From Crocinitomix sp. (GTDB lineage Bacteria; Bacteroidota; Bacteroidia; Flavobacteriales_D; Crocinitomicaceae): DNA of 64,000 nt. The notes below the pieces were generated by a model. The model was not told where the DNA came from and did no database searches. It saw nothing but the letters and a program-made list of their open reading frames with translations. This document shows, piece after piece, positions 1,571 through 17,403 of this stretch (positions are counted from its first letter, which is position 1; the number at the start of each line of letters is the position of its first letter). Where the stretch lies: positions 1 to 64,000 of the forward strand of contig WTCE01000070.1 of assembly GCA_013138735.1 (NCBI GenBank). Reading direction: 5' to 3'. The position numbers and the translations under genes were made by a program.

Positions 1571-1589
1571 AAATCTACTGCAAAAGCAT

Positions 1590-1597: not shown

Positions 1598-1623
1598 CTC
1601 AAGCCTTAACTTCTATTTTCTAT

Positions 1624-2460: not shown

Positions 2461-2531
2461 TAGCTGCAAATATATTTTGTGAAATTTTCACCGGCGTTAG
2501 AAGCCTTTCGTGAAGAACTCAGCGAAAGCAT

Positions 2532-2539
2532 TATCTTTA
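2532..2539 (+). promoter_or_regulatory. Putative -7 box for the GldH-like gene
   Basis: TATCTTTA sits in the context CAGCGAAAGCATTATCTTTAG, nearly the same as the boxes before 1624 and 31747. It lies 69 bp before the ATG at 2608. Confidence 0.4.
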
Positions 2540-2607
2540 GTCAAGTGTCAAAATCAATTGAGACAAAGTATAAGTAATAAATACAGAAATAACCATAAAA
2601 TTAATCC

Positions 2608-3078: not shown

Positions 3079-3108
3079 CATCTTACGAAAAGTGAAGCGT
3101 AAAAATGA

Positions 3109-3540
3109 CCTATAGAAAAAGATATCGCATTTGTTGCTGAACTATTCGATTTATATCGGGTGTTTTACAATAAAAAAGCTGATTTTAAAAGTGCTGAAAA
3201 ATTCATAGCAGAAAGGATTAAGAATGATGATTCGGAAATTTTTGTGGCTGAAAACGAAAACAATAAACTCGTTGGTTTCGTTCAATTATATCCCTTATTC
3301 TCTTCAACGAAAATGCAAAAATTATGGCTTTTAAATGATCTATTTGTAAATCCTGAATTTCGGAGCAAAGGTGTTTCAATTGGATTAATCGAAAAGGCTA
3401 AGCGCTTGGTTGAAAGCACCAACGCTTGCGGCATGTTTTTGGAAACCGGAAAATCAAACCTAATCGGAAATAATTTATATCCTAAAACAGGTTTTAAATT
3501 AAATGAGGCTTCTAATTATTATGAATGGATTGAGGATTGA
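3109..3540 (+). pseudogene. GNAT acetyltransferase with apparent 5' frameshift (GTG start at 3160 if intact)
   Basis: From a GTG at 3160 the frame encodes 126 residues with the GNAT core 'WLLNDLFVNPEFRSKGVSIGLIEKAKRLVES' and 'LETGKSNLIGNNLYPKTGFKLNE'. The usual N-terminal strand is missing from that start. Upstream in the same frame the DNA still encodes IEKDIAFVAELFDLYR, typical of these enzymes, back to a TGA at 3106-3108. An ATG at 3105 would join it if the single T at 3111 were absent. So the gene is either frameshifted near its start, miscalled by one base, or begins at the internal GTG without strand 1. Confidence 0.65.
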
Positions 3541-3559
3541 GGATTAAAAGGCCAAACAT

Positions 3560-4543
3560 TTACAAACTTGATAAAACCGAATGCATCAAATTAAGGTTAT
3601 AATTATTTATCTTTTGATGCGTAGGCATCCAACCCAATAAAAATCGGGTAAAATCTGCACAAGCAACAGGATAAAGCCTCCTCCACTCCTGTTCCAATTC
3701 TTTGAAATTAATAGTCACTATAGCATCTTCCAATGCGCTTTCTAATTCTGAAAAATAGTAATCTAGCAGCTCCTTTTCATTTAATTCACATTCAGAACTT
3801 GAAAGACAACTCCCAAAAAAGTAAGCAACATCCTTCATTCCGCATGCACCACCAACATATTGAAAATCTACCGCCGCTATTTTTGAACCATTTTCGGAAA
3901 AACAAAAATTTGCGAGTTTAGCATCTCCGTGAACAATTGTTTGATAGTTACATTGGTTTAATAATTCGTCAATTAAGTGCGCCTTTGCTTTTAATTCTTG
4001 ATTCTGTATTTTCTCAAATTCATCTGCACGTGTTTTCAAATGCCAATAAGTGCCAACTTGCCACAAGCCGATAGGTTTGTGATTTAAGAATGTTGCATGA
4101 AAATTTGCCAACCATTTCAAACAAACTTTAACCTCTGCTAAATCAATTTGCTGTTTTCGTAAAGGAAAATTCACATTCAAATCTTCCAAAATAATCCATT
4201 GCTCTTTCCCCGCAGAAAATGAACCAATAAACTTTGGTACGCTACACTTATCAGTACAGAGGTGATTCCATTTTTCGTACCAATGTGTTTCAACTTTATA
4301 AGATTTCACCTTTCGACTATGAGAGTGATCTGTATTCCAACCTCTAGGATGCTCATTAGATTGGTTTAGCGATATAAACTTAACCACAACTGTGCTAAGA
4401 GGTGAATCGAACAATTGATAACGAGAAACCTTACCATAACCACTCCACAAAGATTGAATGACTTCAATTTCCTCACACGCCGAAGATTCGGTAACTTTTA
4501 AAAGATAGTCCTTGAAGTCTGGATTCATGAAATGCTCAATCAA
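3560..4543 (-). CDS. EcKinase/aminoglycoside phosphotransferase-like kinase
   Basis: The 327-residue cytoplasmic protein has the phosphotransferase fold of the APH/choline kinase/ecdysteroid kinase-like group. The catalytic loop is 'VHGDAKLANFCF' (HGD-x4-N) and the metal-binding segment is 'AAVDFQYVGGACGMKDVAYFFGSCL', whose DFQ form and following 'KDVAYFF' are characteristic of the EcKinase-like branch. The N-terminal lobe has 'STVVVKFI' as the ATP lysine strand. The small-molecule substrate is unknown. It is transcribed alone, convergent with the acetyltransferase before it. Confidence 0.8.
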   Translation of the reverse strand: MIEHFMNPDFKDYLLKVTESSACEEIEVIQSLWSGYGKVSRYQLFDSPLSTVVVKFISLNQSNEHPRGWNTDHSHSRKVKSYKVETHWYEKWNHLCTDKCSVPKFIGSFSAGKEQWIILEDLNVNFPLRKQQIDLAEVKVCLKWLANFHATFLNHKPIGLWQVGTYWHLKTRADEFEKIQNQELKAKAHLIDELLNQCNYQTIVHGDAKLANFCFSENGSKIAAVDFQYVGGACGMKDVAYFFGSCLSSSECELNEKELLDYYFSELESALEDAIVTINFKELEQEWRRLYPVACADFTRFLLGWMPTHQKINNYNLNLMHSVLSSL

Positions 4544-4619
4544 TTTATAACAAAAGTAATATTAATTCATTGTCAGTATAAATGATTGAACTTGTAATCT
4601 GTGAGATATCTCGAATTAA

Positions 4620-4653
4620 AAACTGCTTTTGCCTAGAATGGCAAAAGCAGTTT
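4620..4653 (-). terminator. Strong intrinsic terminator for the DUF4386 operon
   Basis: A perfect 14-bp stem (AAACTGCTTTTGCC / GGCAAAAGCAGTTT) with a 6-base loop lies 40 bp past the stop of the DUF4386 gene. Read on the minus strand the right arm runs into TTTTTAATT. Confidence 0.8.
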
Positions 4654-4692
4654 AATATAGAAGCGATTTAATTGGGTAAAACTTAAACTCAA

Positions 4693-5406
4693 TTACGATT
4701 TAACAACATTGCCTTTCCCTTTAATCAACAACCAAAAGGCAAACCATAACTCACCTATTACAGCTAAAACTAGCAGAGATGAAAACACGATAGTTAGTAC
4801 TTCTGAATTCACTAACGTAAACTGAATAAAAGTATCTCCTGCATAGCCAATACCTCCTACCAACATGATAAGACCAAGCCATTTGGGAGCAATACCCGAT
4901 TTTCGGATCACATATCCCAACGTAAAAAGATGAATTGCAAAGAATATTTGCCAAGCCAACTCCCCATACTTATGCACTTTAAAAAAGAGATGTGTCAAGG
5001 AATTCAATTGTTCGGAACTAAATGCACTCAGGAATTCGGGTTGCGTCATAATTATTGCTGGAACCATATAATTCAGCAAATTGATTCCCATGATTATGGC
5101 CATGGCCATTCGAGAATAAGTAGCAATCGTCATTCCTGTCTTACTGTATGATTTAAAAAGATGATAGATCATTGCAGTAAGCAAGACTTCCAGTATGATT
5201 ACGGCGATATCTCCTGCAATACCCCATCTAAATAGTTCTTGATTTTCCAAGAGGTTTTGAAATGTAAGCGCTGCGTCTCCTTCAGCAACTATTACGGTTG
5301 GCATATAACCTATGCTAAATCCACCAACAACGGCAATAATAAGATAGATAAGACCCGCCAGTTGCGAATAGGTTTTTCCTTGATTTTGAAGTTTTGATAG
5401 TATCAT
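4693..5406 (-). CDS. DUF4386 membrane protein (copy 1)
   Basis: The 237-residue protein has about six hydrophobic segments and the DUF4386 layout: 'GLIYLIIAVVGGFSIGYMP' near the N-terminus, 'LTHLFFKVHKYGELAWQIFFAIHLFTLGYVIRKSGIAPKWLGLIMLVGGIGY' in the C-terminal half. Function in the family is unknown. It is the last gene of a minus-strand unit 6681-4693 (oxidoreductase, small membrane protein, this gene). A second DUF4386 gene lies at 14797-15429 in the same neighbourhood with a related leader sequence, so the two belong to duplicated modules. Confidence 0.85.
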   Translation of the reverse strand: MILSKLQNQGKTYSQLAGLIYLIIAVVGGFSIGYMPTVIVAEGDAALTFQNLLENQELFRWGIAGDIAVIILEVLLTAMIYHLFKSYSKTGMTIATYSRMAMAIIMGINLLNYMVPAIIMTQPEFLSAFSSEQLNSLTHLFFKVHKYGELAWQIFFAIHLFTLGYVIRKSGIAPKWLGLIMLVGGIGYAGDTFIQFTLVNSEVLTIVFSSLLVLAVIGELWFAFWLLIKGKGNVVKS

Positions 5407-5444
5407 TTTTTTATCTTTTAGCTTAAGGAGAACATTGATTTCTC

Positions 5445-5648
5445 TTATTGTTTCTTTTTAATTTTTAATTGATCAGATAGGAAACCCAATTGCAGAATAA
5501 ATCCTATAAATAGTGTTCCTACGATTGCCATAGATGTTGCATTTTTTTCTCCTAAAAAATAACACGTTAAAACAATCATTGCTATCCAATTAATTGAGAT
5601 GAACAGTAGTATTGTTCTCTTTGAAAATTTCATTTTATTTGCTTTCAT
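5445..5648 (-). CDS. Small two-helix membrane protein
   Basis: The 67-residue product has two hydrophobic helices ('TILLFISINWIAMIVLTCYF' and 'SMAIVGTLFIGFILQLGF') and a basic tail (KIKKKQ). I do not recognise a family. It lies 38 bp before the DUF4386 gene and 67 bp after the oxidoreductase on the same strand, so it is probably co-transcribed. Its upstream leader (5650-5692) matches the leader of the second DUF4386 gene at 15430-15480. Confidence 0.6.
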   Translation of the reverse strand: MKANKMKFSKRTILLFISINWIAMIVLTCYFLGEKNATSMAIVGTLFIGFILQLGFLSDQLKIKKKQ

Positions 5649-5715
5649 TTTTAATGTTTTTTATTGTTAATACTTATTTGATTTTTATTTGTAGGCCAAA
5701 GCCTTTGGCGAAGGT

Positions 5716-6681
5716 TTACAGAGCGTGATTCATGCTAATGATCACATTTCCTTTTTTATGTCCACCGTCTACATGCGCATGTGCAAGAGAAATCTCTTCT
5801 AATGAATATACTTTATCCACAACCGCTTTTAGTTTTCCAGCTTCAATCAATTCTTTGAAAAAACGCATGTCTTCTGCCGTTTCTTTAATCACACCTGAGT
5901 GAACTTTTTTACTGCCAAACATTGAACTGAACGCACCTCGCAACATTAATCCAACACTTGCACTTGCTAATAACATGGTTCCGTCCTTTTTTAAAGATTT
6001 CATGCCCTTAGAGAATGAGCTTTTTCCAACTGTATCAAAAATGACATCATATTTTACACCGTTCTGTGTAAAATCAGTCTTGGTATAGTCAATGACCTTA
6101 TCTGCCCCTAAATCACTCACTAGATTTGCATTTCCCCCACTACAAACTGCCGTTACTTCTGCGCCACGTTCTTTAGCCAATTGAATAGCTGCAGTTCCCA
6201 AGGCACCTGATGCTCCAAAAACCAATACTTTTTGTCCTTTAGATATTTCCCCCTTTCTCAGAAAATGAAGAGCTGCAGTGCCTCCAAATGGAATAGCAGC
6301 AGCAGCCTGGTAAGACATATTTTCTGGAATCACAGCCAAAGTTCCTTCTTCTGAAATGCATTGGTATTGTGCATGCGCTCCAAATGACATTCCTGTTGTG
6401 CCAAAAACCTTATCTCCCACTTTGAATTTGCTTACATTGTTTCCTACAGATTCTACTTCACCTGCAACAACAACTCCCAATATTGATTTTCTTGGTCTTT
6501 TAAATCCAAAAATCAATCGGATAATATATGGATCTGCTCTTCTAATTCTTGCATCTCCTGATGTTACTGAAGAGCTATAAATCTTCAATAAGATTTGATC
6601 GTCTTTTGGTGTTGGTTTTTCAACATTCTTTAACTGTAAAACTTCTGGTTTACCGTAACTTGTACATATTGCTGCTTTCAT
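5716..6681 (-). CDS. Zinc-independent MDR quinone reductase-like oxidoreductase (copy 1)
   Basis: The 321-residue protein is a medium-chain dehydrogenase/reductase of the quinone oxidoreductase type, expected to reduce quinones or enones with NAD(P)H in the cytoplasm. It has the GroES-like N-domain ('GVVVAGEVESVGNNVSKFKVGDKVFG') and the nucleotide-binding loop 'VLVFGASGALGTAAIQLAK', and it lacks the zinc-ligand cysteine cluster of alcohol dehydrogenases. It opens its transcription unit directly downstream of repeat B1, whose TACATTTG box is about 50 bp before the start. A paralogue lies at 12090-13061. Confidence 0.87.
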   Translation of the reverse strand: MKAAICTSYGKPEVLQLKNVEKPTPKDDQILLKIYSSSVTSGDARIRRADPYIIRLIFGFKRPRKSILGVVVAGEVESVGNNVSKFKVGDKVFGTTGMSFGAHAQYQCISEEGTLAVIPENMSYQAAAAIPFGGTAALHFLRKGEISKGQKVLVFGASGALGTAAIQLAKERGAEVTAVCSGGNANLVSDLGADKVIDYTKTDFTQNGVKYDVIFDTVGKSSFSKGMKSLKKDGTMLLASASVGLMLRGAFSSMFGSKKVHSGVIKETAEDMRFFKELIEAGKLKAVVDKVYSLEEISLAHAHVDGGHKKGNVIISMNHAL

Positions 6682-6720
6682 AATTCTTGTTTTATAATTC
6701 GATTAATAATTTCTTTTAAT

Positions 6721-6845
6721 TTTGATTACAGGCCAAATGTATAGACATTGTGAGGCCCAGAAGTTCTGGATTACATACAGCTGTTCGGATTTATAAATCG
6801 GAACTACTTTATGTACCCAGAGGTTTAAATAGTAAGGTTTGATCA
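6721..6845. repeat. Intergenic repeat B, copy 1 (promoter of the oxidoreductase operon)
   Basis: About 120 bp shared with 10018-10141 and, in its first 85 bp, with 15484-15569. Shared parts in order: TTGATTACAGG.CAAATGTAT, the palindrome CCAGAAGTTCTGG (6757-6769), GATTACATACAG, and an imperfect palindrome GTTCGGATTTATAAATCGGAAC. On the minus strand 6741-6734 reads TACATTTG, a perfect Bacteroidota -7 box, with the palindrome about 16 bp further upstream. Confidence 0.85.
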
Positions 6846-7157
6846 AGCTTTTTCAAAGGTGAACTTGTAGTTAAATACATCTAATGCAGAATGCTCCTTT
6901 TGAATATACATCTCTAACAATTCGTTTGAGATCAAATCGATCAGCTCTTGTTGCGACCCTTGGATATCAATGATGTGTATTTGACAGTCTTCAACATAAA
7001 AACTCACTACAACAAAGTCTTGATGATACTCATCCAACTGTATTTCACTTAAGTTTGGATTCACATTGTTTACTATCTCATTTTTTAAAGATGGATTCAC
7101 TGATCCAAAACTGATACTTGCTATTAAAACTGTTACTATTAGGATAAACTTTTTCAT
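6843..7157 (-). CDS. Small secreted protein, copy 1 (unknown family)
   Basis: The 104-residue product has a clear signal peptide (MKKFILIVTVLIASISFGS) and an 85-residue mature domain with strands 'FVVVSFYVEDCQIHIIDIQGS' and 'FNYKFTFEKA'. Its paralogue at 13663-13977 is highly similar throughout. It is transcribed alone, with repeat A1 about 50-210 bp upstream. I do not recognise a named family; small periplasmic proteins of this look are common beside LytTR/histidine kinase loci in Bacteroidota, but that is general knowledge and not a functional call. Confidence 0.7.
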   Translation of the reverse strand: MKKFILIVTVLIASISFGSVNPSLKNEIVNNVNPNLSEIQLDEYHQDFVVVSFYVEDCQIHIIDIQGSQQELIDLISNELLEMYIQKEHSALDVFNYKFTFEKA

Positions 7158-7202
7158 AATTCAAATTTTAAAGGTTAAGCTGCTTGAATTTTCATTGGTT
7201 AA

Positions 7203-7365
7203 TTCATTTACAGCTTGATTACAGGACAAATATGGCATCAAAGTTTGGGCATAAAAAGAATAGATGATGAACCAAGAAATAATCACCTTACACGTAGGTT
7301 TAAATGAACCAAACCATGGTTTGACCAAAAAAGAAGGGTGTTTGTACCAATTTGAATAGTGTATA
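7203..7365. repeat. Intergenic repeat A, copy 1
   Basis: About 160 bp shared with 10162-10314 and 14023-14186 in the same orientation. Conserved blocks are TTGATTACAGGACAAATAT, CATCAAAG, GAGCATAAAAAG, GATGATGAACCA, CTTACACGTAG, the 14-bp palindrome CAAACCATGGTTTG (7310-7323) and GTGTTTGTACCAATTTGA.TAGTGTAT. It lies directly upstream of the small secreted protein gene on the minus strand. The rest of the 314-bp gap to the receptor gene holds the receptor's terminator. Confidence 0.85.
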
Positions 7366-7395
7366 GCTTTTCTCTACTTCTATCGTCAAATAACA

Positions 7396-7427
7396 GAAAA
7401 GCCCTCCATCTCTGAAGGGCTTTAAAA
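7396..7427 (-). terminator. Intrinsic terminator of the outer-membrane receptor gene
   Basis: AAAGCCCT / AGGGCTTTT stem with a 10-base loop, 45 bp past the stop of the gene ending at 7472. On the minus strand the right arm ends in TTTT. Confidence 0.65.
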
Positions 7428-7471
7428 TTCAATATAGTGTCAGATTAAAAAAGTAGAAGAACCGTGATCTT

Positions 7472-9973
7472 TTAAAAGGGACCACCACCTCCACCTTCAG
7501 ATTCCTGATTGATCTCTTTTTGCTTTTTCTTCACCTTATCTCCCTTACCAAATCGATAGCTGAACTCCAGAATAAACATGTTCTTTACTAACGATACATC
7601 ATTGCTAGTACTCATTGTGAACCCAGTTGTTTCTACATGTGATTCTTGGTTGTAATTTGCGCCGAGTGTTATTGGCAGAAAATAACCGAACATTACACTT
7701 GCTTTTTTCTTGAAGAGAGGCTGTTTGTAAAATAACATCCAAAAATCAACATCTCCTTTTTCATACCCCAATCCACGAATACGCTTAGTCTGCTCATGCT
7801 GATACTTTAATCCCAGAATGGCTTTGGTTTTAGGGAAGATGTACATTAGGTCAACTCCGGCTTTCCAATCTACAAATTCATTCACCCCTGAAGTTGATTC
7901 TATTCTTGCTTGAAACACTTCTACGTTACTTTTTATCAGAAAACTTGCTTTTTTGAAGTATTTACTAAAATTAAGCTTTCCCCCAACTCTTTGATAGCTG
8001 TCAACATTTTCAAATCTATAATCAAAAATATTGTCTGCTCCTAAATCGCCAATTCTGGCAATTTTATTGTTCGAATAATGCAAGTATGGCTCAAATGCAA
8101 TCAAGCCACGCAGCACATTAAGACGGATAGAAAGCCTATGCGTAGAAGATGGTCTTAGAAACGGATTACCTGTTGATGTAATTCTTGGGTTTACTTGGCT
8201 TACGAACGGATTCGTTTGTGCTATTGTTGGGTAATCGCTAGAGACGCGGTACTTGAATTTTACATTGACTTTCTTTGAGATGTCATATTTCAAGTCAACA
8301 AGAGGTTGATAAATCAGGTAATTAAACTGTTGACCAGCTCCTCTTGGAGAAGATGTTTCGAGGGCAATACCAGCTCTCATACCCCATTTTTTGTTCATTT
8401 TCCAAGAGATGTTCGAATAGAGTTTATGGCGCGTGTCTGACAATTGAAAATCATTAGAAAAAGTAATTGTTTGCTTCGAACTAATGTCCATTTGACTAAT
8501 ATGGTATACGTTATTCAATTCTCTCCATGTATTTCCATAACCAAACTGAATGTTCATTTTTGGCGAGAAAACATGATCGAACTCTGCGTAGAATCGGGAG
8601 AATTGTTTTTTATTTACACCTGTCTCCTCACGTGAGTAAGCTCCTTCTTGTAATGTATTATTGCTAACAGATTCTCTGTAATTCGAATACGTATAGTTGA
8701 TACTTAACTTATTGGATTTGTTAAACTCTCCAACATAAAATAATGAATTGTAAGTGTCCCATTTTTTACCGTTTGCGTTTGAACCAAAGTTGTATTGGTC
8801 AATCAATGTATCGTTCGAGTACACCTGAGTTACATAATCAAACCTTTTCTGTTCACCGCCAAATGGAAGAGTTTCAAGATTGCTCTCAAAACTTATGATA
8901 TGTTTTGGATTGATTCGGTAATCAAACCCTAAATTGTAACGAGCATTATACTCAAGCATGAATCCGTTTGGATCAGTCGATTCCGCATTTTCTGAAACCA
9001 CCAAACCATCTTCATATTCTGACATTGATTCTGTAGTAATTTGAAAATGCTTGCGGCGCAGTCGAAGACCACCATAAATATTCAAATTGTCTCTCGTGTA
9101 ATTATACGTTCCACCAATAGATCCAACTAACAATTGAAGATTTTTTTTATCTGTATTGATATCAACAACTTGCATTTCCTCCATGTATACCTCAGTTCCG
9201 GTATAATTAGTCTTTAAAATAATATTGAGTATTGCTGTATAGCCTTCTAGTCCGTATCGTCCTCCAGGGTCTCGACTTGTTTCAACTTTCAGTAATCTCT
9301 CAGGATTCAAGTTTTGAATGTATTCCTGACTTTTTTCAACTCCATTTACGAGAATCATGATATTCGCATCACCGTCAACTTTTAAGATTCCGGCATAATC
9401 ATCATAGGAGATTCCGGTAATTTTATTGAGGACATCTTTCGCAGCAGTAGCTCCATTTCTTAGCTCTTTAGTAACAAGCTGAACATCTTTATCCAATCTT
9501 TCCGTCCTTGCATTTCCAATAACCTCCACTTCTGCAAGATTTAATACATCTTCATGCAATTTAAAGACACCTAAAAAGCTGTCTTCTCTAAGCCTGGGAA
9601 TTGAAACAGTGTCATTTTGGTAGCCAAGCGAACTGATAACGAGGCGGCACGGACATGGATTAAAAGGAATCTTAAAAAAGCCTTTCTCGTCAGTAATACC
9701 TCCGTTAATAATACTATCCTGCTCATTTATTACAGTAATTTTGGAGTAAAGTAGGTTTTCTTTTGTTTCATAATCCTTCACTTGTCCAGATATTTCTACT
9801 TGGCTTTGTGCGTTCCCTGAAAAGGAACAGAATACCATAACAAGTCCAACCAAGAGAGGCAGGCCACTCTTAACTTTATTTCTAACATCTTTTTTTATTC
9901 CTTTAATAAAAAGCCACATTAAAAGTACACCTGTTCCTAAGCTATTACTGGAGATTAAAATTAACTTTTTCAT
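7472..9973 (-). CDS. TonB-dependent receptor-like outer-membrane beta-barrel protein
   Basis: The 833-residue protein has a signal/transmembrane region, a carboxypeptidase-regulatory-like domain ('VEISGQVKDYETKENLLYSKITVIN...GFFKIPF', about residues 58-135), a plug-like domain ('NGATAAKDVLNKITGISYD...VNGVEKSQEYIQNLNPERLLKVE') and a long beta-barrel of the OMP_b-brl_3 type. Such proteins carry out TonB-driven uptake or surface processing; the ligand is unknown. The N-terminus is odd: a hydrophobic stretch with MWLFIKGIKK precedes the obvious signal peptide (GLPLLVGLVMVFCSFSGNAQS), so a start inside, at about residue 19, is possible. The C-terminus is glycine-rich (EGGGGGPF). Repeats B2 and A2 form its promoter region. 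Confidence 0.85.
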   Translation of the reverse strand: MKKLILISSNSLGTGVLLMWLFIKGIKKDVRNKVKSGLPLLVGLVMVFCSFSGNAQSQVEISGQVKDYETKENLLYSKITVINEQDSIINGGITDEKGFFKIPFNPCPCRLVISSLGYQNDTVSIPRLREDSFLGVFKLHEDVLNLAEVEVIGNARTERLDKDVQLVTKELRNGATAAKDVLNKITGISYDDYAGILKVDGDANIMILVNGVEKSQEYIQNLNPERLLKVETSRDPGGRYGLEGYTAILNIILKTNYTGTEVYMEEMQVVDINTDKKNLQLLVGSIGGTYNYTRDNLNIYGGLRLRRKHFQITTESMSEYEDGLVVSENAESTDPNGFMLEYNARYNLGFDYRINPKHIISFESNLETLPFGGEQKRFDYVTQVYSNDTLIDQYNFGSNANGKKWDTYNSLFYVGEFNKSNKLSINYTYSNYRESVSNNTLQEGAYSREETGVNKKQFSRFYAEFDHVFSPKMNIQFGYGNTWRELNNVYHISQMDISSKQTITFSNDFQLSDTRHKLYSNISWKMNKKWGMRAGIALETSSPRGAGQQFNYLIYQPLVDLKYDISKKVNVKFKYRVSSDYPTIAQTNPFVSQVNPRITSTGNPFLRPSSTHRLSIRLNVLRGLIAFEPYLHYSNNKIARIGDLGADNIFDYRFENVDSYQRVGGKLNFSKYFKKASFLIKSNVEVFQARIESTSGVNEFVDWKAGVDLMYIFPKTKAILGLKYQHEQTKRIRGLGYEKGDVDFWMLFYKQPLFKKKASVMFGYFLPITLGANYNQESHVETTGFTMSTSNDVSLVKNMFILEFSYRFGKGDKVKKKQKEINQESEGGGGGPF

Positions 9974-10017
9974 AATGTTGTGTTTTTTCTTTTTTCAGTT
10001 ACTCGTATTATTTCCAA

Positions 10018-10141
10018 TTGATTACAGCACAAATGTATGGCCATTATAAAGCCTAGGAGTTCTAGATTACATGCAGGGGTTCGGAATTATAATTCGGAAC
10101 TACTTCATGTGCCTAGAAGTTTAAATATTAAGGTTTGATTA
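10018..10141. repeat. Intergenic repeat B, copy 2 (receptor promoter)
   Basis: Second copy of repeat B, 45 bp before the receptor start. It keeps TACATTTG on the minus strand (10037-10030), the inverted pair CTAGGAGTTCTAG (10053-10065, imperfect) and GTTCGGAATTATAATTCGGAAC. The flanking GTATTATTTCCAATTGATTACA is repeated again at about 10150, where repeat A2 begins, so A and B stand in tandem here. Confidence 0.85.
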
Positions 10142-10161
10142 ATGACATTGTATTATTTCCA

Positions 10162-10314
10162 ATTGATTACAGGACAAATATCACATCAAAGAATGAGCAT
10201 AAAAAGAATAGATGATGAACCAAGAAATAATTACCTTACACGTAGTTATAAGTTAACCAAACCATGATTCGACTAAAAAAGAAAGGTGTTTGTACCAATT
10301 TGAGTAGTGTATAT
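10162..10314. repeat. Intergenic repeat A, copy 2
   Basis: Second copy of repeat A between repeat B2 and the histidine kinase start at 10358. The central palindrome is degraded (CAAACCATGATTCG, 10258-10271). It may serve the leftward receptor gene, the rightward kinase gene, or both; orientation relative to copies 1 and 3 favours leftward. With B2 it fills the 384-bp gap. Confidence 0.85.
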
Positions 10315-10357
10315 CAATATTCTTGTTTGTATCACTTAACAACAGTAGCTTTGAAGA

Positions 10358-11323
10358 ATGAGTGATCTTTTAAAAAAGATAAAAAAAACAACTTTTAGAA
10401 TAATTGCCTTGCTGCTCTTATTCATTGTAATGGCCTTCATAGATGGCTCAATGGATTACAATGACAACCCAATAACTATCATCTTATTACTGATATTTTG
10501 GATCGGGTTTGCGCATTTACTATTCCCTTCTTTTATTACTAAATACTGGAAAGTAATCGTACTGTACTTTGTCCCACTCCTGCTGTTTTTTACATATATC
10601 CGCTTGTTTTCAGATGATTTTGAAGCTTACCTACAAATCAGGGATGACACTTCTCTATTGGTTTTATTGATCCCTATCCCTATCTTTCTTGGGATCTGTT
10701 TATGGATATACGAACAATGGAAATGGGTTCAAAACTTAAAAGCTGGAAAACGCGAAGCAGAATTGAGTTTATTACGCTCACAAATCAATCCTCATTTTTT
10801 CTTTAATACTTTAAATAATTTATACGCCTTGACAATAACAAAATCAGATCAAGCACCTGAAGTGATTTTGAAATTATCTGACATGATGCGTTACACAATT
10901 TATGAAGGAGAAAAAGAAACCGTAAAATTGTTGGATGAAATCACCTATTTAGAAAACTACATTGAATTACATAAAATTCGATATAAAAAATCTGTCGAAA
11001 TCACATTTAATCATGCGGTCGACACAAGCTTGAGCGTTGCTCCTTTAATGTATATCATTCTATTAGAAAATGCTTTTAAACACGGCATAGAAACACTTGC
11101 CGAAAATGCCTTTATTCATATCAATTTATATGAAGACAATAATTTCATCTGTTTTGACATTGAGAATAATTTTGACCCTGACAATCAAAATGAATCAACT
11201 GGCATAGGTTTAAATAACCTTATAAAAAGACTTTCTTTATTGTATAAAGGAAAACATGAGTATACTGTAAATGTTACAGAAAACATTTATAAAACAAAAT
11301 TAAAAACCGCTAAAGATGCTTAA
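10358..11323 (+). CDS. LytS/YehU-type sensor histidine kinase
   Basis: The 321-residue inner-membrane protein has four predicted transmembrane helices (about residues 13-120) and then the His_kinase domain 'SLLRSQINPHFFFNTLNNLYAL' with the phosphorylated histidine at about residue 146. The HATPase part has an N box ('LLENAFKHGIE') and 'TGIGLNNLIKRL'. It has no large periplasmic sensor domain, so it may sense within or at the membrane. It overlaps the LytTR regulator by 8 bp, the usual LytS/LytTR pairing. It sits in the middle of the module set that carries repeats A and B. Confidence 0.92.
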   Translation: MSDLLKKIKKTTFRIIALLLLFIVMAFIDGSMDYNDNPITIILLLIFWIGFAHLLFPSFITKYWKVIVLYFVPLLLFFTYIRLFSDDFEAYLQIRDDTSLLVLLIPIPIFLGICLWIYEQWKWVQNLKAGKREAELSLLRSQINPHFFFNTLNNLYALTITKSDQAPEVILKLSDMMRYTIYEGEKETVKLLDEITYLENYIELHKIRYKKSVEITFNHAVDTSLSVAPLMYIILLENAFKHGIETLAENAFIHINLYEDNNFICFDIENNFDPDNQNESTGIGLNNLIKRLSLLYKGKHEYTVNVTENIYKTKLKTAKDA

Positions 11324-12017
11324 ATATATAATTATTGATGATGAGCCATTGGCGCATGATATTATAAAAGAATTCTGTAGCATGCTGCCGCATCTTCAAT
11401 TAGAAAAGGACTGCTATAATGCAATGGAGGCTATGCAGTATTTAAATGAAAATACGGTAGACTTTATGTTTTTAGACATTAACATGCCAAAATTAAAAGG
11501 ATTAGATTTTTTAAAAACCTTAACAAATCCTCCAAAAACTATAATCACAACAGCCTATAAAGAACATGCGATAGAAGGATTTGAATTAAATGTAGTAGAC
11601 TATATTTTAAAACCATTTAGTTTTGATCGTCTGGTAAAAGCTGTAAATAAAGTATCACAAACTGAAACTACAAAACCAACTGTTAAAGAAGTTTCTAATA
11701 ATTCTACGGCTACTCGTTTCTTTATTAAAGGGGATAAAAAACATCATCAAATTAACTTGGATAACCTGTTATATATAGAGGCTTATGGTAATTATACCAA
11801 ATTATTTTTGAAAGATGAAATGATTGTAAGTCATGAAAAAATATCTCATTATGAAGCCATTCTAACAGATGATAATTTTTTAAGAATTCATAAATCGTTT
11901 ATAGTTGCGGTAGACAAAATAAAATTCATAGAAGGAAATCGAGTGCTAATTAATGAGAACAAAATTCCTATTGGTCAGACATATAAGAGCATTATTAGTA
12001 AACTTTATAATACGTAA
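11316..12017 (+). CDS. LytTR family response regulator
   Basis: The 233-residue regulator has a receiver domain ('YIIIDDEPLAHDIIKEF', phospho-acceptor Asp54 in 'FLDINMP', 'TTAYKEHAIEGFELNVVDYILKPF') and a LytTR DNA-binding domain ('FFIKGDKKHHQINLDNLLYIEAYGNYTKLFL...FLRIHKSFIVAVDKIKFI'). It is translationally coupled to the kinase. LytTR proteins bind promoter sites of short repeats; the repeated intergenic elements on either side (A and B) are plausible targets, which is inference. Confidence 0.93.
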   Translation: MLKYIIIDDEPLAHDIIKEFCSMLPHLQLEKDCYNAMEAMQYLNENTVDFMFLDINMPKLKGLDFLKTLTNPPKTIITTAYKEHAIEGFELNVVDYILKPFSFDRLVKAVNKVSQTETTKPTVKEVSNNSTATRFFIKGDKKHHQINLDNLLYIEAYGNYTKLFLKDEMIVSHEKISHYEAILTDDNFLRIHKSFIVAVDKIKFIEGNRVLINENKIPIGQTYKSIISKLYNT

Positions 12018-12089
12018 TTTACTAGTTCAATACTAATTATAAAGATCGCCAGATCCTTGATTTGGCTTTTAAAAGAATTTGAAGATAAT

Positions 12090-13061
12090 ATGCAAAAAAT
12101 GAAAGCTGCAATTCGGAGACGTTATTGTGATCCTAAGGATATTAAAATTGAAGAAATTGATAAACCTATTCCAAACGATAATGAACTATTAATTAAAATT
12201 CATGCAACTACGGTCAATAGAACGGATTGTGCAAATTTGACTGGAAAACCATTTATAATGCACTTTGTCTTAGGCCTTTTTAAACCTAAAAAAATAATAT
12301 TAGGGACTGATTTTGCAGGCGAAGTCGTAGCCGTTGGGAAAAATATCAAAACTCATAATGCAAACGACAGGGTATTTGGATTTACTGACTCAGGATTAGA
12401 AACGCAAGCTGAGTACATGGCATTAACGCCTAAAGGGAACTTGTTAAGCATACCTAATAACATTGATTATAAGCAAGCCGCTGCAAGTTTAGAAGGTGCA
12501 CATTATGCCTATAGTTTCATTCATAAATCAAATATACAGCCCGGACAAAGAATACTTATCAATGGTGCTACTGGAGGAATTGGGTCTGCCCTACTCCAAT
12601 TTGTAAAACAATTTGATGTTCACATAACGGCTACCTGTAACACGAAAAATAAAGACTTGATAAAATCTCTTGGTGCGGATAAAATTTATGATTACACTGT
12701 AGAAGATTTTACAACTGATAATGAAAAATATGATTTCATATTTGATGTCGTAGGTAAAAGTACATTTGGAAAATGTAAACCATTACTAAAAAAGAAAGGG
12801 GTTTATATCTCTTCTGAATTAGGCCCTTATTCGCAAAACATATTTTTTGCACTCACTTCTTTTGCAAGAAGCAAAAAAGTGGTCTTCCCGGTTCCCCATA
12901 GCGTAAAAAAAACGTTGCCTTATATCAATGATCTTTTGAAAACTGAAAAGTTCAAACCAGTCATAGATCGAGAATATGCTTTAGCAGATATATCACAGGC
13001 CTATGAATTTGTAATGGCTGGCGAAAAAACAGGGAATGTTGTAATCAGTTATTTATCATAA
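12090..13061 (+). CDS. Zinc-independent MDR oxidoreductase (copy 2)
   Basis: The 323-residue quinone-reductase-like MDR protein is a paralogue of 5716-6681, with matching 'GTDFAGEVVAVGKNIKTHNANDRVFG', 'ILINGATGGIGSALLQFVK' and 'YDFIFDVVGKSTFGKCKPLLKKKG'. The frame is open from 12057, but the ATG at 12090 (or 12099, MKAAIRRR) fits the family start. It follows the LytTR gene by 72 bp on the same strand and may be the third gene of that operon. Its stop overlaps the 3' end of the convergent DoxX-like gene. Confidence 0.87.
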   Translation: MQKMKAAIRRRYCDPKDIKIEEIDKPIPNDNELLIKIHATTVNRTDCANLTGKPFIMHFVLGLFKPKKIILGTDFAGEVVAVGKNIKTHNANDRVFGFTDSGLETQAEYMALTPKGNLLSIPNNIDYKQAAASLEGAHYAYSFIHKSNIQPGQRILINGATGGIGSALLQFVKQFDVHITATCNTKNKDLIKSLGADKIYDYTVEDFTTDNEKYDFIFDVVGKSTFGKCKPLLKKKGVYISSELGPYSQNIFFALTSFARSKKVVFPVPHSVKKTLPYINDLLKTEKFKPVIDREYALADISQAYEFVMAGEKTGNVVISYLS

Positions 13062-13628
13062 TTTGCCATACCCAAGTAGGTTCACGATTAATTGATCTCC
13101 TATTAAAATTAAGACTATTATAACTAGGACAATTGAATATTTAAAGAATTTTTCTTTGAATGCTATTTTAGGAGCCACCTTAGTGCTTACAAGTTTTTTC
13201 AAAATAGCACCGATTTTTTCCTTATTGATTACCAGGATTGTAATGAGCATTAAAAAATATATTGTTGCATTTCCTACTGCACCATATTCGTCAAGAAAAA
13301 AAATGTCAAATACAATTATATTGACCATTATTGGGATCAAAATAAGGATTCCTATTAGTTTTGTTCTATTAAAGAGCAGCAGAAAAGCTCCAATAATTTG
13401 AGCTAAACCAATGAACAGAATATATCCAAATGAACGCCCCATAAAAGTCCAAGCCAATTCAAAATCTGGTACTAGTCCAATTGGCATTGCCGCTAATTCA
13501 TCTGGAATGCTTGTTGATGTATAAAATTGTTGCCCCAAAATCTTTCCGATCCCATAAATACTTAAGAAAAAGAATACGTAAAGACGGCATGTGATTTCAA
13601 GTATTTCTTTAAAATCAAACTTCTTCAT
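13056..13628 (-). CDS. DoxX/MauE-like membrane protein
   Basis: The 190-residue protein has about five hydrophobic helices. The opening 'LEITCRLYVFFFLSIYGIGKILGQQFY' and 'LAQIIGAFLLLFNRTKLIGILILIPIMVNIIVFDIFF' match the DoxX-like/MauE pattern of Bacteroidota membrane proteins. The role is unknown; family members have been linked to redox balance. It precedes the small secreted protein gene's 3' end by only 34 bp on the same strand, so it is probably co-transcribed behind that gene from repeat A3. Confidence 0.7.
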   Translation of the reverse strand: MKKFDFKEILEITCRLYVFFFLSIYGIGKILGQQFYTSTSIPDELAAMPIGLVPDFELAWTFMGRSFGYILFIGLAQIIGAFLLLFNRTKLIGILILIPIMVNIIVFDIFFLDEYGAVGNATIYFLMLITILVINKEKIGAILKKLVSTKVAPKIAFKEKFFKYSIVLVIIVLILIGDQLIVNLLGYGKL

Positions 13629-13662
13629 AACCTTGTTTTAGATTTTGAGTACTAATTTTGTT

Positions 13663-13977
13663 TTAAGCTTTTTTAAAGGTGAACTTGTAGTTGTATACAT
13701 CTGAATCAGAATACTCTTTTTCGATACACATCTCTGACAATTCATTTGATATCATTTGAATCAATTCTTTTTGTGATCCCTGTATATCAAGAATGTGTAC
13801 TTGAAAGTCTTTGATGTAAAAACTCACAACAACAAAATCTTGATGAGCATCATCCAACTCTATTCCACTTAAGTTTGCATTCACTTTGTTTATTATCTCA
13901 TTTTTTAAAGAAGGATTCTCTGAGCCAAAACTGATACTTGCCATTAAAACTGCGGCGATTAGAATAAATTTTTTCAT
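13663..13977 (-). CDS. Small secreted protein, copy 2
   Basis: The 104-residue paralogue of 6843-7157 has the signal peptide MKKFILIAAVLMASISFGS and a closely related mature domain ('DFVVVSFYIKDFQVHILDIQGSQKELIQMISNEL', 'YNYKFTFKKA'). The similarity continues through the 5' leader into repeat A3, so gene plus promoter were duplicated as a unit. Compared with copy 1 the single cysteine is lost. Function is unknown. Confidence 0.7.
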   Translation of the reverse strand: MKKFILIAAVLMASISFGSENPSLKNEIINKVNANLSGIELDDAHQDFVVVSFYIKDFQVHILDIQGSQKELIQMISNELSEMCIEKEYSDSDVYNYKFTFKKA

Positions 13978-14022
13978 AATATTATTTTTTAAAGGTTCTA
14001 CTGCTTGAATGTTAATTGTTTA

Positions 14023-14186
14023 TTCATTTATAGCTTGATTACAGGACAAATATGGCATCAAAGTTTGAGCATAAAAAGTTAAGATGATGAACCACAGGAT
14101 AATGGGCTTACACGTAGCTTTAAGCAAGCCAAACCATGGTTTGACTAGCAAAGAGTGGTGTTTGTCTTAATTTGAGTAGCGTATAT
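14023..14186. repeat. Intergenic repeat A, copy 3
   Basis: Third copy of repeat A, starting about 45 bp before the small secreted protein gene. It keeps TTGATTACAGGACAAATATGG, CTTACACGTAG and a perfect CAAACCATGGTTTG (14130-14143). Confidence 0.85.
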
Positions 14187-14217
14187 CAAAATTGATACTG
14201 GTAGTAGTGCGTTCGAC

Positions 14218-14502
14218 TTACTTCTTATCAAATTTATTTTTAATCAATTTTCTTTTCCATTCTTCTCCAAAAAGATTAAAAACATTAAGAGAATAGATTA
14301 CTAGTAACACGCCCCAAGAAAGTAGTATCCATAAAAAATAACTCCAATTAGATGAATCGTTAACCGCAATAATAAATGCAACTAGCAAGCTTAAAATGGC
14401 AACTGCTAAAAGTTTATAAAACCCTTTCACATTTTGGATATACTCTTCTTCATTTCTCAACTGTTTCTTTTCTTCTTTCTTATCAGATATTGCTGCTTTC
14501 AT
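14218..14502 (-). CDS. 2TM domain protein
   Basis: The 94-residue protein (start MKAAISDKKEEKK at 14502) has a charged N-terminus, then 'NVKGFYKLLAVAILSLLVAFIIAVNDSSNWSYFLWILLSWGVLLVIYSLNVF' with two helices, and a basic tail. This is the 2TM domain pattern, found alone or fused to LytTR-partner kinases. The frame stays open to 14559, but that extension covers a relic of another gene (see 14518-14550). Its 5' leader (CATAATTCTTGTTTTA in the plus-strand reading) matches that of the MDR gene at 6681, which also begins MKAAI. It is last in the unit from 15429. Confidence 0.75.
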   Translation of the reverse strand: MKAAISDKKEEKKQLRNEEEYIQNVKGFYKLLAVAILSLLVAFIIAVNDSSNWSYFLWILLSWGVLLVIYSLNVFNLFGEEWKRKLIKNKFDKK

Positions 14503-14517
14503 AATTCTTGTTTTAAA

Positions 14518-14550
14518 TTTTTCCAAAGGTGAACCTGCAATTAAATACAA
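14518..14550 (-). pseudogene. Relic of the small secreted protein gene's 3' end
   Basis: The stretch matches the last codons of the two 104-residue secreted protein genes (TTTCCAAAGGTGAACCTGCA against TTTTCAAAGGTGAACTTGTA at 6848 and 13670). No start or remaining body is present. It looks like a leftover of module recombination. Confidence 0.45.
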
Positions 14551-14552
14551 CT

Positions 14553-14795
14553 TCACCATGTCATCACCATAGAAGTGATACCTACGTTTGATAGGATTTC
14601 AATCACCTTGTTTTCAGTTAGCGAAGTCTTTGTTTCAATGCGTAGCACTTTATCTACATCCTCTACATCCACACTCCAGTTTAAAATGTCTTTTTGCTGG
14701 TTAAAGATTGGAGCAATTAATTCTAGTTTTTTAAAATTCTTAATGTCAGTTTTGAATACCAATATATTATTGGTGTTATACAGTCTGAATCGCAT
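14553..14795 (-). CDS. Small HMA-like (ferredoxin-fold) protein
   Basis: The 80-residue protein reads 'ILVFKTDIKNFKKLELIAPIFNQQKDILNWSVDVEDVDKVLRIETKTSLTENKVIEILSNVGI', the beta-alpha-beta pattern of heavy-metal-associated-like small proteins common in Bacteroidota. The CxxC metal motif is absent, so metal binding is doubtful. It starts 1 bp after the DUF4386 stop and is clearly co-transcribed. Confidence 0.6.
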   Translation of the reverse strand: MRFRLYNTNNILVFKTDIKNFKKLELIAPIFNQQKDILNWSVDVEDVDKVLRIETKTSLTENKVIEILSNVGITSMVMTW

Positions 14796-14796
14796 A

Positions 14797-15429
14797 CTAA
14801 TCTCTTTTAACGCCTTTGATAAGTAACCAAAGTATAATTGCTAATTCACCAATAAATGTGAATTCACTTAGAACGAATCCAAGATCTATATTTAAGAAGA
14901 CCATGAAAGAATCGATCAAATATCCAAAACAGGCAATCATCAATAAAACGCCAATTATTTTTGGAATAAAGCCTGATTTATAAACTAAATAACCCATTGG
15001 GAACAACCATATACCCCAGAATACTTGGGCGATAACAATCCCATATTCATGTAGTTTTAAAAACAAGGATACTTGGTCTGCATTTCCTAATGATTCTAAT
15101 ACAGCAAAATTGTTCAACTCATTCAACATGGCTATTGGCACTGCTACCAAAATTGAGATCACCATCAGTATCGCTATATTTTTGTTAACTGACTTGAGCA
15201 ACTGGTACAACCAAAACACCGTCAGAATTTGAATCAATTGTGCCACCAAAGCACTAATTATACTGAGACGGAAAGTAAGTTTATCAGCAGCTATGTTGTT
15301 CATTGTTGCCATGATGTCCTCCGGGTCAATAAACTGCATTGGAATATAGAGGATTCCGAAGACTCCAAATGGTATTAAAAGTAGATAGAGGAATCCTGTT
15401 TGTCTGGCTAATCGAATAGTTGGTTTCAT
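14797..15429 (-). CDS. DUF4386 membrane protein (copy 2)
   Basis: The 210-residue protein has about six membrane helices and the DUF4386 marks 'GFLYLLLIPFGVFGILYIP' and 'LFLKLHEYGIVIAQVFWGIWLFPMGYLVYKSGFIPKIIGVLLMIACFGYLIDSF'. It heads a minus-strand unit with the HMA-like and 2TM genes. Repeat B3 is its promoter region; the leader between B3 and the start (15430-15480) matches the leader of the small membrane protein at 5650. It is shorter and clearly diverged from copy 1 (4693-5406). Confidence 0.85.
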   Translation of the reverse strand: MKPTIRLARQTGFLYLLLIPFGVFGILYIPMQFIDPEDIMATMNNIAADKLTFRLSIISALVAQLIQILTVFWLYQLLKSVNKNIAILMVISILVAVPIAMLNELNNFAVLESLGNADQVSLFLKLHEYGIVIAQVFWGIWLFPMGYLVYKSGFIPKIIGVLLMIACFGYLIDSFMVFLNIDLGFVLSEFTFIGELAIILWLLIKGVKRD

Positions 15430-15483
15430 ATTGAATGTGTTTTTTTGTTAATACTCATTTGATATATTAATTTTTATTTTAAG

Positions 15484-15569
15484 CTTGATTACAAGACAAA
15501 TGTATAGCCATTATGAGCCCTAGAAGTTCTAGATTACATACAGGGGTTCGGAATTATAAATCGGAACTA
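15484..15569. repeat. Intergenic repeat B, copy 3 (DUF4386 operon promoter)
   Basis: It carries TTGATTACAAGACAAATGTATAG, the perfect palindrome CTAGAAGTTCTAG (15520-15532) and GTTCGGAATTATAAATCGGAAC. The minus-strand -7 box TACATTTG is at 15504-15497, 68 bp before the start at 15429. It is shorter at the right end than copies 1 and 2. Confidence 0.83.
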
Positions 15570-15627
15570 ATTAAGGAAGGGTACTAGAAAGAAAATAAAA
15601 AAGAATGAGCAAAAAGGACTATAACAA

Positions 15628-17403
15628 CTAACCTTTCAAGAATTGTTTGGGTGTCAATCCTGTTTCTTTTTTGAAATAGGTATTAAAGACTGTTTTGGAA
15701 TTAAATCCACTATCATAGGCCATGCCTATTAAGGTAAGATGTGCGTTTTTTGGATCTTTTGCAATGTGTTTGAAAGTCTCAATACGATAAGCATTGATAA
15801 ACTCATTGAAGCTTTTACCTATATGCTCATTAAGTAACCATGAAAGTTGGTTGGGGTGAATTTCAATTTTCTCGGCCATTGATCTGAGCGTTAGACTTGG
15901 ATCTAAATAGGACTCACTCTCTGTCAAATGAGTCAACAATCTTGATTTATATTCTTGAGCAACATCTTCAGCAAGTAATGCTTTCTTTTGCTTTTTCAAA
16001 GAACTGTTAGCAATAGCGGGAAAAATAGTATCGTGAAATTGCTTAAAGCGTTTGTCAGAATGCAGATTACTGACGATAGGATCAGCGTATCGCAAATGCA
16101 ATAAAGTTGATTTGGTTTCAATTCCTTTTTGTACCCAATCAAAAGCCAGATCTATTTCTCCACTAACCGCATAGATCATAAAAACGAATGAATCTGCCGA
16201 AAAGCCTTCTGGTGTTTTTGCAAGGTCTTGTAAAATGGTCAAGTATTTTTCTGCATTTACATGATCTTGTTTCATAGCATAGCCCAATCCAATCGCGCCT
16301 AGCTTTTCTGCTTCAACAACTTCATTGGTAAGATCATCAAAATAATGAATCACCTCATCATATCTGCCCAACTTGAGTAAACAAAGGCATTTTACTGAAT
16401 GTGCTGGAATATTTTTGGGGTTCACAACCAAACAAGCGTCCAATTGAATTAATGACTTCTCATAATTGTTAGTCATATAATCAAAATAGGCGCTGAAGAA
16501 TGCCGTTTCTGATGAAAGCGGATCAATTCCTAAAGCAATATCTAAATGCACTTTCGCCTTCTCTTTATTTCCCGTCAAAACATAAAGAAAAGACAAAAAT
16601 TGTTGTGATTCAACGTAATTTGGTTTCAATTGAATAGACTTTTTGGCATTAGCTAAGGCATCACTGTAATTTGATTCAGTAAAAAATGATCTGTTTGCTT
16701 TTTGATAATATACTTCAGGATTATCTGGATCAAGATTCAGCGCTTTATCAACCAATTCATTCGACTTGCCCCAAGCATCCATAAAAGGCATACTTCCTGT
16801 CATGGCCATGAAGCTATAGACATCAGCTAATCCAACTAGTGAATCAACATGGTTTGCATCCAACTCTAATCCTTTCTTATAATAAGCCTCTGCAATCTTT
16901 ATGTCTTCAGAGTTCCACTTGTTCTTATGAAACCTTGCCATCAAAGAGTATTCATAGGTGTTGACGTTATCCGTTTGTTTGGAAACCAAATGATCAGCCA
17001 TCTCAAAATGACCGAAATTCTCTCGAATTTTATCAGCAATCATAAGGCTAATTTCATCTTGGATTTCAAATATGTTTTCTAATTTACGATCCCAGGTCTC
17101 TGACCAAAAATGAAAATCATCCTCAGCTTGAATTAATTGAGCTGTAATCCTTAAAACATCTGCCGAAAGTCGAACACTTCCTTCTAAAATAGTTGAAACA
17201 CCTAAAGTATTCCCGATATCTGAAATAGGAATTTCCTTATCCTTAAAATGAAAAGAAGATGTTCTAGAAGTTACTTTAAGTGAACCAATTTTAGCCAAAG
17301 CATTAATGATCTCCTCCGTAATTCCATCACAGAAATATTCATTCTCAGTATTAGAACTCATGTTCTTAAATGGTAAAACTGCTATGGAGAGGTTCTTCGT
17401 CAA
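15628..17403 (-). CDS. AraC-type regulator with TolB-like and TPR domains
   Basis: The 591-residue protein has three parts: an N-terminal TolB/adenylate-cyclase-associated domain ('SIAVLPFKNMSSNTENEYFCDGITEEIINALAKI...TILEGSVRLSADVLRITAQLIQAEDDFHFWSETWDR'), a TPR array (about residues 160-460), and a C-terminal AraC/HTH_18 domain ('LTLIGMAYDSGFNSKTVFNTYFKKETGLTPKQFLKG'). No transmembrane helix is seen, so it is likely a cytoplasmic transcription factor that senses through the N-terminal or TPR part. It ends 198 bp before the DUF4386 unit on the same strand, with repeat B3 between. Confidence 0.88.
   Translation of the reverse strand: MTKNLSIAVLPFKNMSSNTENEYFCDGITEEIINALAKIGSLKVTSRTSSFHFKDKEIPISDIGNTLGVSTILEGSVRLSADVLRITAQLIQAEDDFHFWSETWDRKLENIFEIQDEISLMIADKIRENFGHFEMADHLVSKQTDNVNTYEYSLMARFHKNKWNSEDIKIAEAYYKKGLELDANHVDSLVGLADVYSFMAMTGSMPFMDAWGKSNELVDKALNLDPDNPEVYYQKANRSFFTESNYSDALANAKKSIQLKPNYVESQQFLSFLYVLTGNKEKAKVHLDIALGIDPLSSETAFFSAYFDYMTNNYEKSLIQLDACLVVNPKNIPAHSVKCLCLLKLGRYDEVIHYFDDLTNEVVEAEKLGAIGLGYAMKQDHVNAEKYLTILQDLAKTPEGFSADSFVFMIYAVSGEIDLAFDWVQKGIETKSTLLHLRYADPIVSNLHSDKRFKQFHDTIFPAIANSSLKKQKKALLAEDVAQEYKSRLLTHLTESESYLDPSLTLRSMAEKIEIHPNQLSWLLNEHIGKSFNEFINAYRIETFKHIAKDPKNAHLTLIGMAYDSGFNSKTVFNTYFKKETGLTPKQFLKG

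Follow-up and report, generated by a model that had tools for sequence, protein, structure and literature searches.

The 64,000-nucleotide stretch of Crocinitomix sp. DNA analyzed here (contig WTCE01000070.1, positions 1 to 64,000; hereafter the window) carries two families of long repeats, A and B, which look like the promoters of a local regulon, and comparisons with other genomes support the two neighboring regulators as the proteins likely to bind them. In the explanation which we consider best, and to which we give a probability of about 75%, repeat B would be the operator-promoter of the adjacent regulator TPR-AraC, a protein combining tetratricopeptide repeats (TPR) with an AraC-type helix-turn-helix (HTH), repeat A would be under the control of the neighboring sensor kinase LytS and response regulator LytTR, and two regulons would have merged in the window. 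The assignment of B to TPR-AraC is very likely, judging from the comparative data.

Two Families of Repeats Confined to One Locus

As an earlier note on this DNA had proposed, two families of long repeats are present in the region, with three copies each, and all six copies lie in the same orientation, toward leftward genes, within a single 9-kb stretch (Table 1). In the longer frame delimited by the repeat finder, the A copies extend over positions 7198-7365, 10146-10313, and 14018-14185, and A2 and A3 are 84 and 83% identical to A1 over 168 nucleotides (nt). The longer frame of B extends over positions 6687-6846, 9983-10142, and 15450-15609; B2 and B3 are 76 and 64% identical to B1 in this frame, and 83 and 86% identical in the core. 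Searching the 6.84-Mb genome (97.5% complete) by blastn with E-values up to 0.001 yielded these three A and three B places and no others, with E-values ranging from 3.5e-83 to 3.0e-45 in the case of A and from 1.0e-63 to 8.7e-26 in that of B; one extra B row corresponded to the dyad described below pairing with its own reverse strand, and not to another copy. This repetition is far beyond chance. Many copies in unrelated contexts, which the earlier note had named as the finding that would speak against a regulon, were not detected either by blastn or by scanning the genome for the dyad: since the matches are confined to 3 + 3 places in one 9-kb stretch, a dispersed repeat or mobile element is ruled out.

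The repeats had been described as standing in front of leftward transcription units, which is correct as regards their orientation, but A2 adjoins no gene and stands upstream of B2. The sequence TTGATTACAGGACAAAT with which A and B were both thought to begin is exact in the three A copies, but shows one mismatch in each B copy. What A and B have in common is the TTTG belonging to the -7 box, together with the leader after it (tCCTGTAATCAAg), which are also common to the A and B modules of a related genome, G033. The genome was searched for the shared core TTTGNNCTGTAATCAA, which was found at six places, five of them in the window repeats (B3 being one base off) and the sixth within an open reading frame of contig C175, and no wider regulon emerged. 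Nor did blastn of repeat A give any match in eight other genomes of the same genus, the window genome being grouped in the same genus as G002.

Structure of Repeat B

The most conserved part of B, which the earlier note had left unnamed, is the dyad GTTCsGAwTTATAAwTCsGAAC (half-sites H1 and H2), followed, 20 nt beyond the GAAC of H2, by a third half-site, H3, which also reads GAAC and occupies the -33 position. In the window genome the exact dyad occurs at three places and the next-best site has 2 mismatches; when up to 3 mismatches were allowed, the scan gave 29 rows, as compared with 25 in the case of the reversed control. The -7 box TACATTTG, said to be perfect in B, is indeed so in all three copies. 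The palindrome CTAGAAGTTCTAG that had been noted in B is exact in B3, but B1 has CCAGAAGTTCTGG and B2 has CTAGGAGTTCTAG. This box contains the GAAC of H3, and the proposal that it serves as a palindromic binding site is not supported by the comparison: its symmetry, which involves 10-12 of the 12 positions in the window, amounts to a median of 4 of 12 in the relatives, where only 3 of 24 sites reach 8, and it is the GAAC half that is kept instead, as a direct-repeat half-site, in 23 of these 24 sites.

Repeat B Accompanies TPR-AraC Genes in Other Genomes

TPR-AraC homologues (E up to 1e-60, with five candidates scored per genome) were identified at 23 places in 19 of the 240 genomes of the family analyzed. 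The dyad, with at most 3 mismatches, was present at 20 of these 23 loci, and in 18 of the 20 cases it followed the regulator match, counted from its end, at a distance of 7-73 nt. The exact dyad pattern occurs in nine of the 240 genomes, versus a single match with the reversed control. The order TPR-AraC gene, dyad, and then the genes of the 104-aa protein S104, the dehydrogenase and/or the DUF4386 protein was found in eight genomes (G033, G164, G008, G012, G061, G140, G030, and G011). B-like DNA was also seen before the S104 homologues of five genomes other than that of the window (four of other genera), immediately preceded by what appears to be the end of an AraC gene.

Named genomes were scanned using a regulator alignment, focusing on the best 80 of the 557 relatives retrieved with peptide patterns of the regulator; these regulators are 37-79% identical, nearly all the loci are titled Bacteroidota (the exceptions are L159, Melioribacteraceae, and L175, Rhodobacteraceae), and at least five come from genomes that are also in the family sample (G033, G002, G164, G140, and G044). 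The dyad (up to 3 mismatches) was found within 500 nt in 57 of the 80 loci, always downstream of the regulator gene and in 53 cases within 150 nt, versus one locus with the reversed pattern, 0-2 with 20 shuffled palindromes, and 18 of 578 1-kb tiles elsewhere in the same loci; 68 loci carry a dyad at some point. The first gene of a window family after the dyad codes for the dehydrogenase at 34 of the 57 sites, for DUF4386 at four, and for S104 at three, and of the 53 dehydrogenase homologues encoded in these loci, 46 are preceded by a dyad at no more than 700 nt. The comparison therefore supports the idea that B goes with the TPR-AraC gene. The earlier note knew of no described system of this composition: the composition as a whole is indeed local, but the core consisting of the TPR-AraC gene, the dyad, and the dehydrogenase gene occurs in many other Bacteroidota.

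Two TPR-AraC genes are present within 14 kb at locus L078 (G061; 246-14046), each with a dyad and a dehydrogenase gene nearby, and the second of them is divergent from its target, with the dyad upstream.

The predicted model of TPR-AraC (pLDDT 89.7) consists of an alpha/beta N-terminal part, a TPR superhelix, and a C-terminal AraC HTH. The latter was recognized by both HTH_18 (2.6e-13) and HTH_AraC (8.2e-08), above the gathering score in each case, and was present at the C-terminus of all 30 homologues scanned, 13 of which also gave weak matches with the Pfam family FlgO (best E 0.0015). No full-length paralogue of TPR-AraC was found in the window genome. The architecture of the model makes a role as a ligand or peptide sensor plausible.

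A Fixed Distance Between the Dyad and the -7 Box

The spacing was counted in 57 dyads, leaving out the 23 of the 80 named loci with more than 3 mismatches. The TTTG ends 29 nt after the dyad in 26 sites and 49 or 50 nt after it in 24, which together account for 50 of the 57, when about 0.2 TTTG ends per offset are expected by chance. A second GAAC is present at 20-21 nt in 24 sites, 23 of which have the exact GAAC, and in the 49/50-nt class this extra GAAC is in register in 23 of 24 sites. In 50 of the 57 sites, whichever the class, the -7 box therefore ends 29 nt beyond the end of a half-site; the full TAnnTTTG is present in 29 of these 50 boxes in register. The three B sites in the window are all of the 49-nt kind. 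According to an excerpt of a study on Flavobacterium psychrophilum, TAnnTTTG occupies positions -12 to -5 in that species (PMC9723704), which would place the GAAC at about -37 to -34, in the -33 region. An AraC-type activator working at class II promoters would require just such a spacing, and activation of the B promoters by TPR-AraC would be in keeping with it.

Loci L104-L108 were found to form a paralogous TPR-AraC group (about 38-41% identity) with the short architecture, in which the dyad itself lies in the -33 region.

Repeat A and the LytS/LytTR Pair

LytS orthologues showing at least 75% identity were found, besides the window genome, in G033 and G155 alone (3 of the 240 genomes of the family and 3 of the 399 in the sample of the order). 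Each of these two genomes has one A site beside a divergent LytTR-LytS pair and another about 3 kb on, before genes coding for the outer-membrane protein or S104, and orthologues of the outer-membrane protein occur near A and LytS in both. The seven A sites can be aligned across three genera, and all seven come from the three genomes in which a close orthologue of LytS occurs. The A pattern recovers the seven sites (six exactly, and A2 with one mismatch), whereas the reversed control recovers none. The sequence CAAACCATGGTTTG, which A had been said to hold, is perfect in A1 and A3 but has two mismatches in A2, and its proposed role as a binding site is not supported: it differs from one to another of the seven A sites and is missing from at least one of them. 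G155 (90% complete) harbors A and LytS/LytTR and gave no TPR-AraC match, and 17 of the 19 genomes carrying TPR-AraC have no close LytS orthologue. At nine loci of more distant LytS homologues, inspected with 1.5-kb flanks, L123 (LytS 36%) showed a weak match with the outer-membrane protein (E 2.5e-16) and the other eight none; the A pattern gave no match in the genomes of these nine loci. The comparison supports the view that A goes with LytS/LytTR. The earlier suggestion that one or both regulators bind the repeats can thus be narrowed down to two likely pairs, B with TPR-AraC and A with LytS/LytTR.

A second dehydrogenase gene follows the LytTR gene in the window (12090-13061, + strand); its product is at most 40% identical to the others. 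It is not beside LytTR in G033, and the contig of G155 ends at this point.

Predicted Target Genes and Possible Origin of the Locus

The features of the locus are listed in Table 1. S104 homologues are present in 28 of 200 genomes of the family, that of the window included. The predicted model of S104a, built from five sequences, has a pLDDT of 78.7, and comparison of the S104 fold with the PDB gave no significant match (best E 0.42), the weak ones including the C-terminal domains of TolA and TonB. The dehydrogenase scored 153.1 bits against the model of the PIG3 quinone oxidoreductase, below its cut-off of 296.8. Upstream of the S104 homologues of L024, L025, L030, L031, and L041, neither A nor B was seen by eye; these loci have in common an element resembling AGTCTTAC, located some 25-35 nt upstream of the S104 start codon, which is perhaps a third type of promoter.

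Table 1. Features of the locus, with positions in the window.
Feature	Position	Strand	Remarks
DUF4386 protein (a)	4693..5406	-	downstream of dehydrogenase
67-aa protein	5445..5648	-	homologues in B modules of G033, G164, G012, G030
Medium-chain dehydrogenase	5716..6681	-	quinone-oxidoreductase-like; behind B1; Pfam ADH_N, ADH_zinc_N_2
B1	6721..6845	-	predicted promoter/operator before dehydrogenase gene; upstream end overlaps S104a stop codon
B1 -7 box	6734..6741	-	TACATTTG
B1 half-site H3	6763..6766	-	GAAC
B1 dyad	6783..6804	-
S104a	6843..7157	-	104 aa; signal-like N-terminus (by eye); behind A1
A1	7203..7365	-	promoter of S104a (predicted); -7-like CATATTTG at 7227-7234
Outer-membrane beta-barrel protein	7472..9973	-	833 aa; behind A2 + B2; Pfam OMP_b-brl_3 and CarbopepD_reg_2
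B2	10018..10141	-	predicted promoter/operator before outer-membrane protein gene; proximal member of tandem A2-B2 pair
B2 -7 box	10030..10037	-	TACATTTG
B2 half-site H3	10059..10062	-	GAAC
B2 dyad	10079..10100	-
A2	10162..10314	-	predicted promoter between LytS (divergent) and B2; -7-like GATATTTG at 10175-10182
LytS-type sensor kinase	10358..11323	+	predicted partner of A regulator; Pfam His_kinase
LytTR response regulator	11316..12017	+	predicted binder of A; Pfam Response_reg + LytTR
S104b	13663..13977	-	paralogue of S104a (74% identity); behind A3
A3	14023..14186	-	promoter of S104b (predicted); -7-like CATATTTG at 14047-14054
Probable remnant of third S104 3' end	14508..14552	-	repeat families D4 (78% and 84% to reference), D13 (94%)
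80-aa protein	14553..14795	-	after DUF4386b; same order in G033
DUF4386 protein (b)	14797..15429	-	behind B3
B3	15484..15569	-	predicted promoter/operator before DUF4386b; directly after AraC gene
B3 -7 box	15497..15504	-	TACATTTG; TTTG ends 49 nt after dyad
B3 half-site H3	15526..15529	-	GAAC; 20 nt after GAAC of H2
B3 dyad	15546..15567	-	GTTCCGATTTATAATTCCGAAC (half-sites H1, H2)
TPR-AraC regulator	15628..17403	-	591 aa; predicted binder of B; Pfam HTH_18 and TPR

In G033, some 150 kb separate the A module from the B module, and both modules have S104 and dehydrogenase genes of their own. In the window, the modules adjoin and interleave, with the A2-B2 tandem before the gene of the outer-membrane protein and B1 between those of S104a and the dehydrogenase. 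Since the modules are separate in G033, those in the window look like two regulons which have merged, and the single response that the earlier note had proposed would be only partly right. Before the 2TM gene, what is probably left of the 3' end of a third S104 gene runs into a leader and start of the dehydrogenase type (14487-14520). In the trees of S104 and the dehydrogenase, the A- and B-driven copies are mixed, most of the forks being weak and the label counts no different from those obtained with shuffles; this mixture suggests that promoters have been exchanged. Together with the arrangement of the locus and the core common to A and B, we take it to mean that the upstream operator blocks were swapped while the core promoter stayed the same.

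The 2TM protein may start at MKAAIS, the leader being the same as that of the dehydrogenase (MKAAICTS; window 14487-14559), and the longer start listed at 14559 is probably not the true one.

Proposed Mechanism and Alternatives

Taken together, A and B would be two types of promoter with a common core and different upstream operator blocks. In B, paired AraC half-sites would form the dyad and the third half-site GAAC would stand where a -33 box would be, a position which would make TPR-AraC most likely a class II AraC activator, active once its TPR sensor part meets the signal. A would correspond to a set of promoters under LytS/LytTR control. Cassettes consisting of a promoter and its gene may have been duplicated and recombined, thereby merging the two regulons: the gene of the outer-membrane protein would now carry both promoters, that of the dehydrogenase would have a B promoter inside an A-driven unit, and the genes of the locus would be co-expressed. 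To a broader formulation we would give even odds: this would be a widespread and hitherto undescribed one-component system of Bacteroidota, in which a CadC-like sensor with an AraC head controls a quinone-oxidoreductase-like enzyme via a two-form, helically phased dyad operator, the operator blocks having been shuffled in this genome onto LytS/LytTR targets, fusing two regulons into a dual-input locus.

Several observations weigh against the assignment of B to TPR-AraC and of A to LytS/LytTR. The 80 named loci, being the best of 557 relatives, are not a random sample; 23 of them have no dyad within 500 nt, and 16 of the 57 dyads have no window family within 700 nt. In the family, three TPR-AraC homologues (L109, L110, and L112) have no dyad, and in the case of two others (L103, which is cut by the contig end, and L111) it is upstream and not downstream. 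None of the gene families of the window occurs near the dyads of G005 (L075, at 9679) and G034 (L076, at 9779). Twenty-one of the 50 boxes in register consist of TTTG alone and not TAnnTTTG. As regards A, the pattern was built from the same sites as those it recovers, and three lone matches with it occur elsewhere among the 240 genomes, in G169 (1 mismatch), G005, and G012 (2 each). The association with LytS/LytTR comes from three genomes, and no direct repeat of the LytTR type stands out from the column-shuffled null in the seven A sites, where the best-scoring pairs, rich in T, fall short of the 95% null, so that the LytTR link is one of location. These last two points would also suit a model in which a factor other than LytTR binds A, or A is a conserved promoter that happens to neighbor LytS/LytTR; this strikes us as possible but rather doubtful, given that in the three genera none of the seven sites is farther than about 4 kb from LytS/LytTR genes and that the matches elsewhere are few, isolated, and imperfect.

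B might alternatively be a repressor site, where TPR-AraC would cover the -33 region and block the promoter until the signal arrives, since a repressor too could make use of the H3 or H2 half-site at this position. AraC-type activators at class II promoters contact RNA polymerase, and the fact that the distance between a half-site and the -7 box is the same in the two geometries, as such a contact would require, makes repression unlikely in our view. It is also conceivable that the repeats are simply the leftovers of a tandem duplication, in which genes and their upstream DNA have not yet diverged and have no special regulatory role: S104a and S104b are paralogues that are 83% identical at the DNA level, like A1 and A3, and the remnant of a copied gene is still visible. 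B precedes three unrelated genes, however, and copying does not explain why the A block is conserved in three genera, nor why the B dyad is conserved in many, at a fixed distance from the TTTG; this interpretation was already disfavored by the dyad counts at the named loci and the spacing rule, and we consider it very improbable. The interpretation of B as an operator-promoter activated by TPR-AraC, and of A as a target of LytS/LytTR, is the one we prefer. It would provide a large family of Bacteroidota regulators with a testable operator obeying a strict spacing rule, with which additional targets could be located and the signal looked for. The natural merger of two regulons proposed here may in turn illustrate how genes swap blocks of their promoters.

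Comparison with Known Systems

Regulation of the AraC and LytTR types is known, and the widespread operator proposed here was not found to be described in the literature searched with narrow terms (DUF4386, LytTR sites in Bacteroidetes, AraC with TPR, and promoters). LytS/LytTR resembles the BtsSR-type systems in that it consists of a His_kinase protein and a Response_reg-LytTR protein, and BtsR is the best NCBIfam model for LytTR; unlike BtsSR, LytTR scores far below the cut-off (109 bits versus 246), the neighboring gene codes for a beta-barrel outer-membrane protein, and no direct-repeat site was detected in A. The periplasmic domain of CadC from E. coli (3ly7, 3ly8, 3ly9, and 3lya) can be aligned with residues 1-326 of the TPR-AraC model (Z 17.4-17.8, rmsd 4.3-4.4 over 298-300 residues), with scores like those of unrelated TPR proteins, and the TPR part of the model scores higher with Rap (Z about 21) and MalT (20.2). 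This alignment shows about 10% identity, and the HTH of TPR-AraC differs from that of CadC in being of the AraC type and C-terminal; it is the sole DNA-binding domain detected in the protein, where no N-terminal winged-helix domain like that of CadC was found. The class II activators of the AraC family, which bind tandem half-sites of the araI1-I2 type, share with TPR-AraC and its candidate operator the C-terminal AraC HTH and the half-sites occurring every 20-21 nt, with the proximal one over the -33/-35 region. TPR-AraC and B differ from these activators in the extra inverted half-site forming the dyad, in the N-terminal part, which is an alpha/beta and TPR module, and in the promoter, which is of the Bacteroidota TAnnTTTG type.

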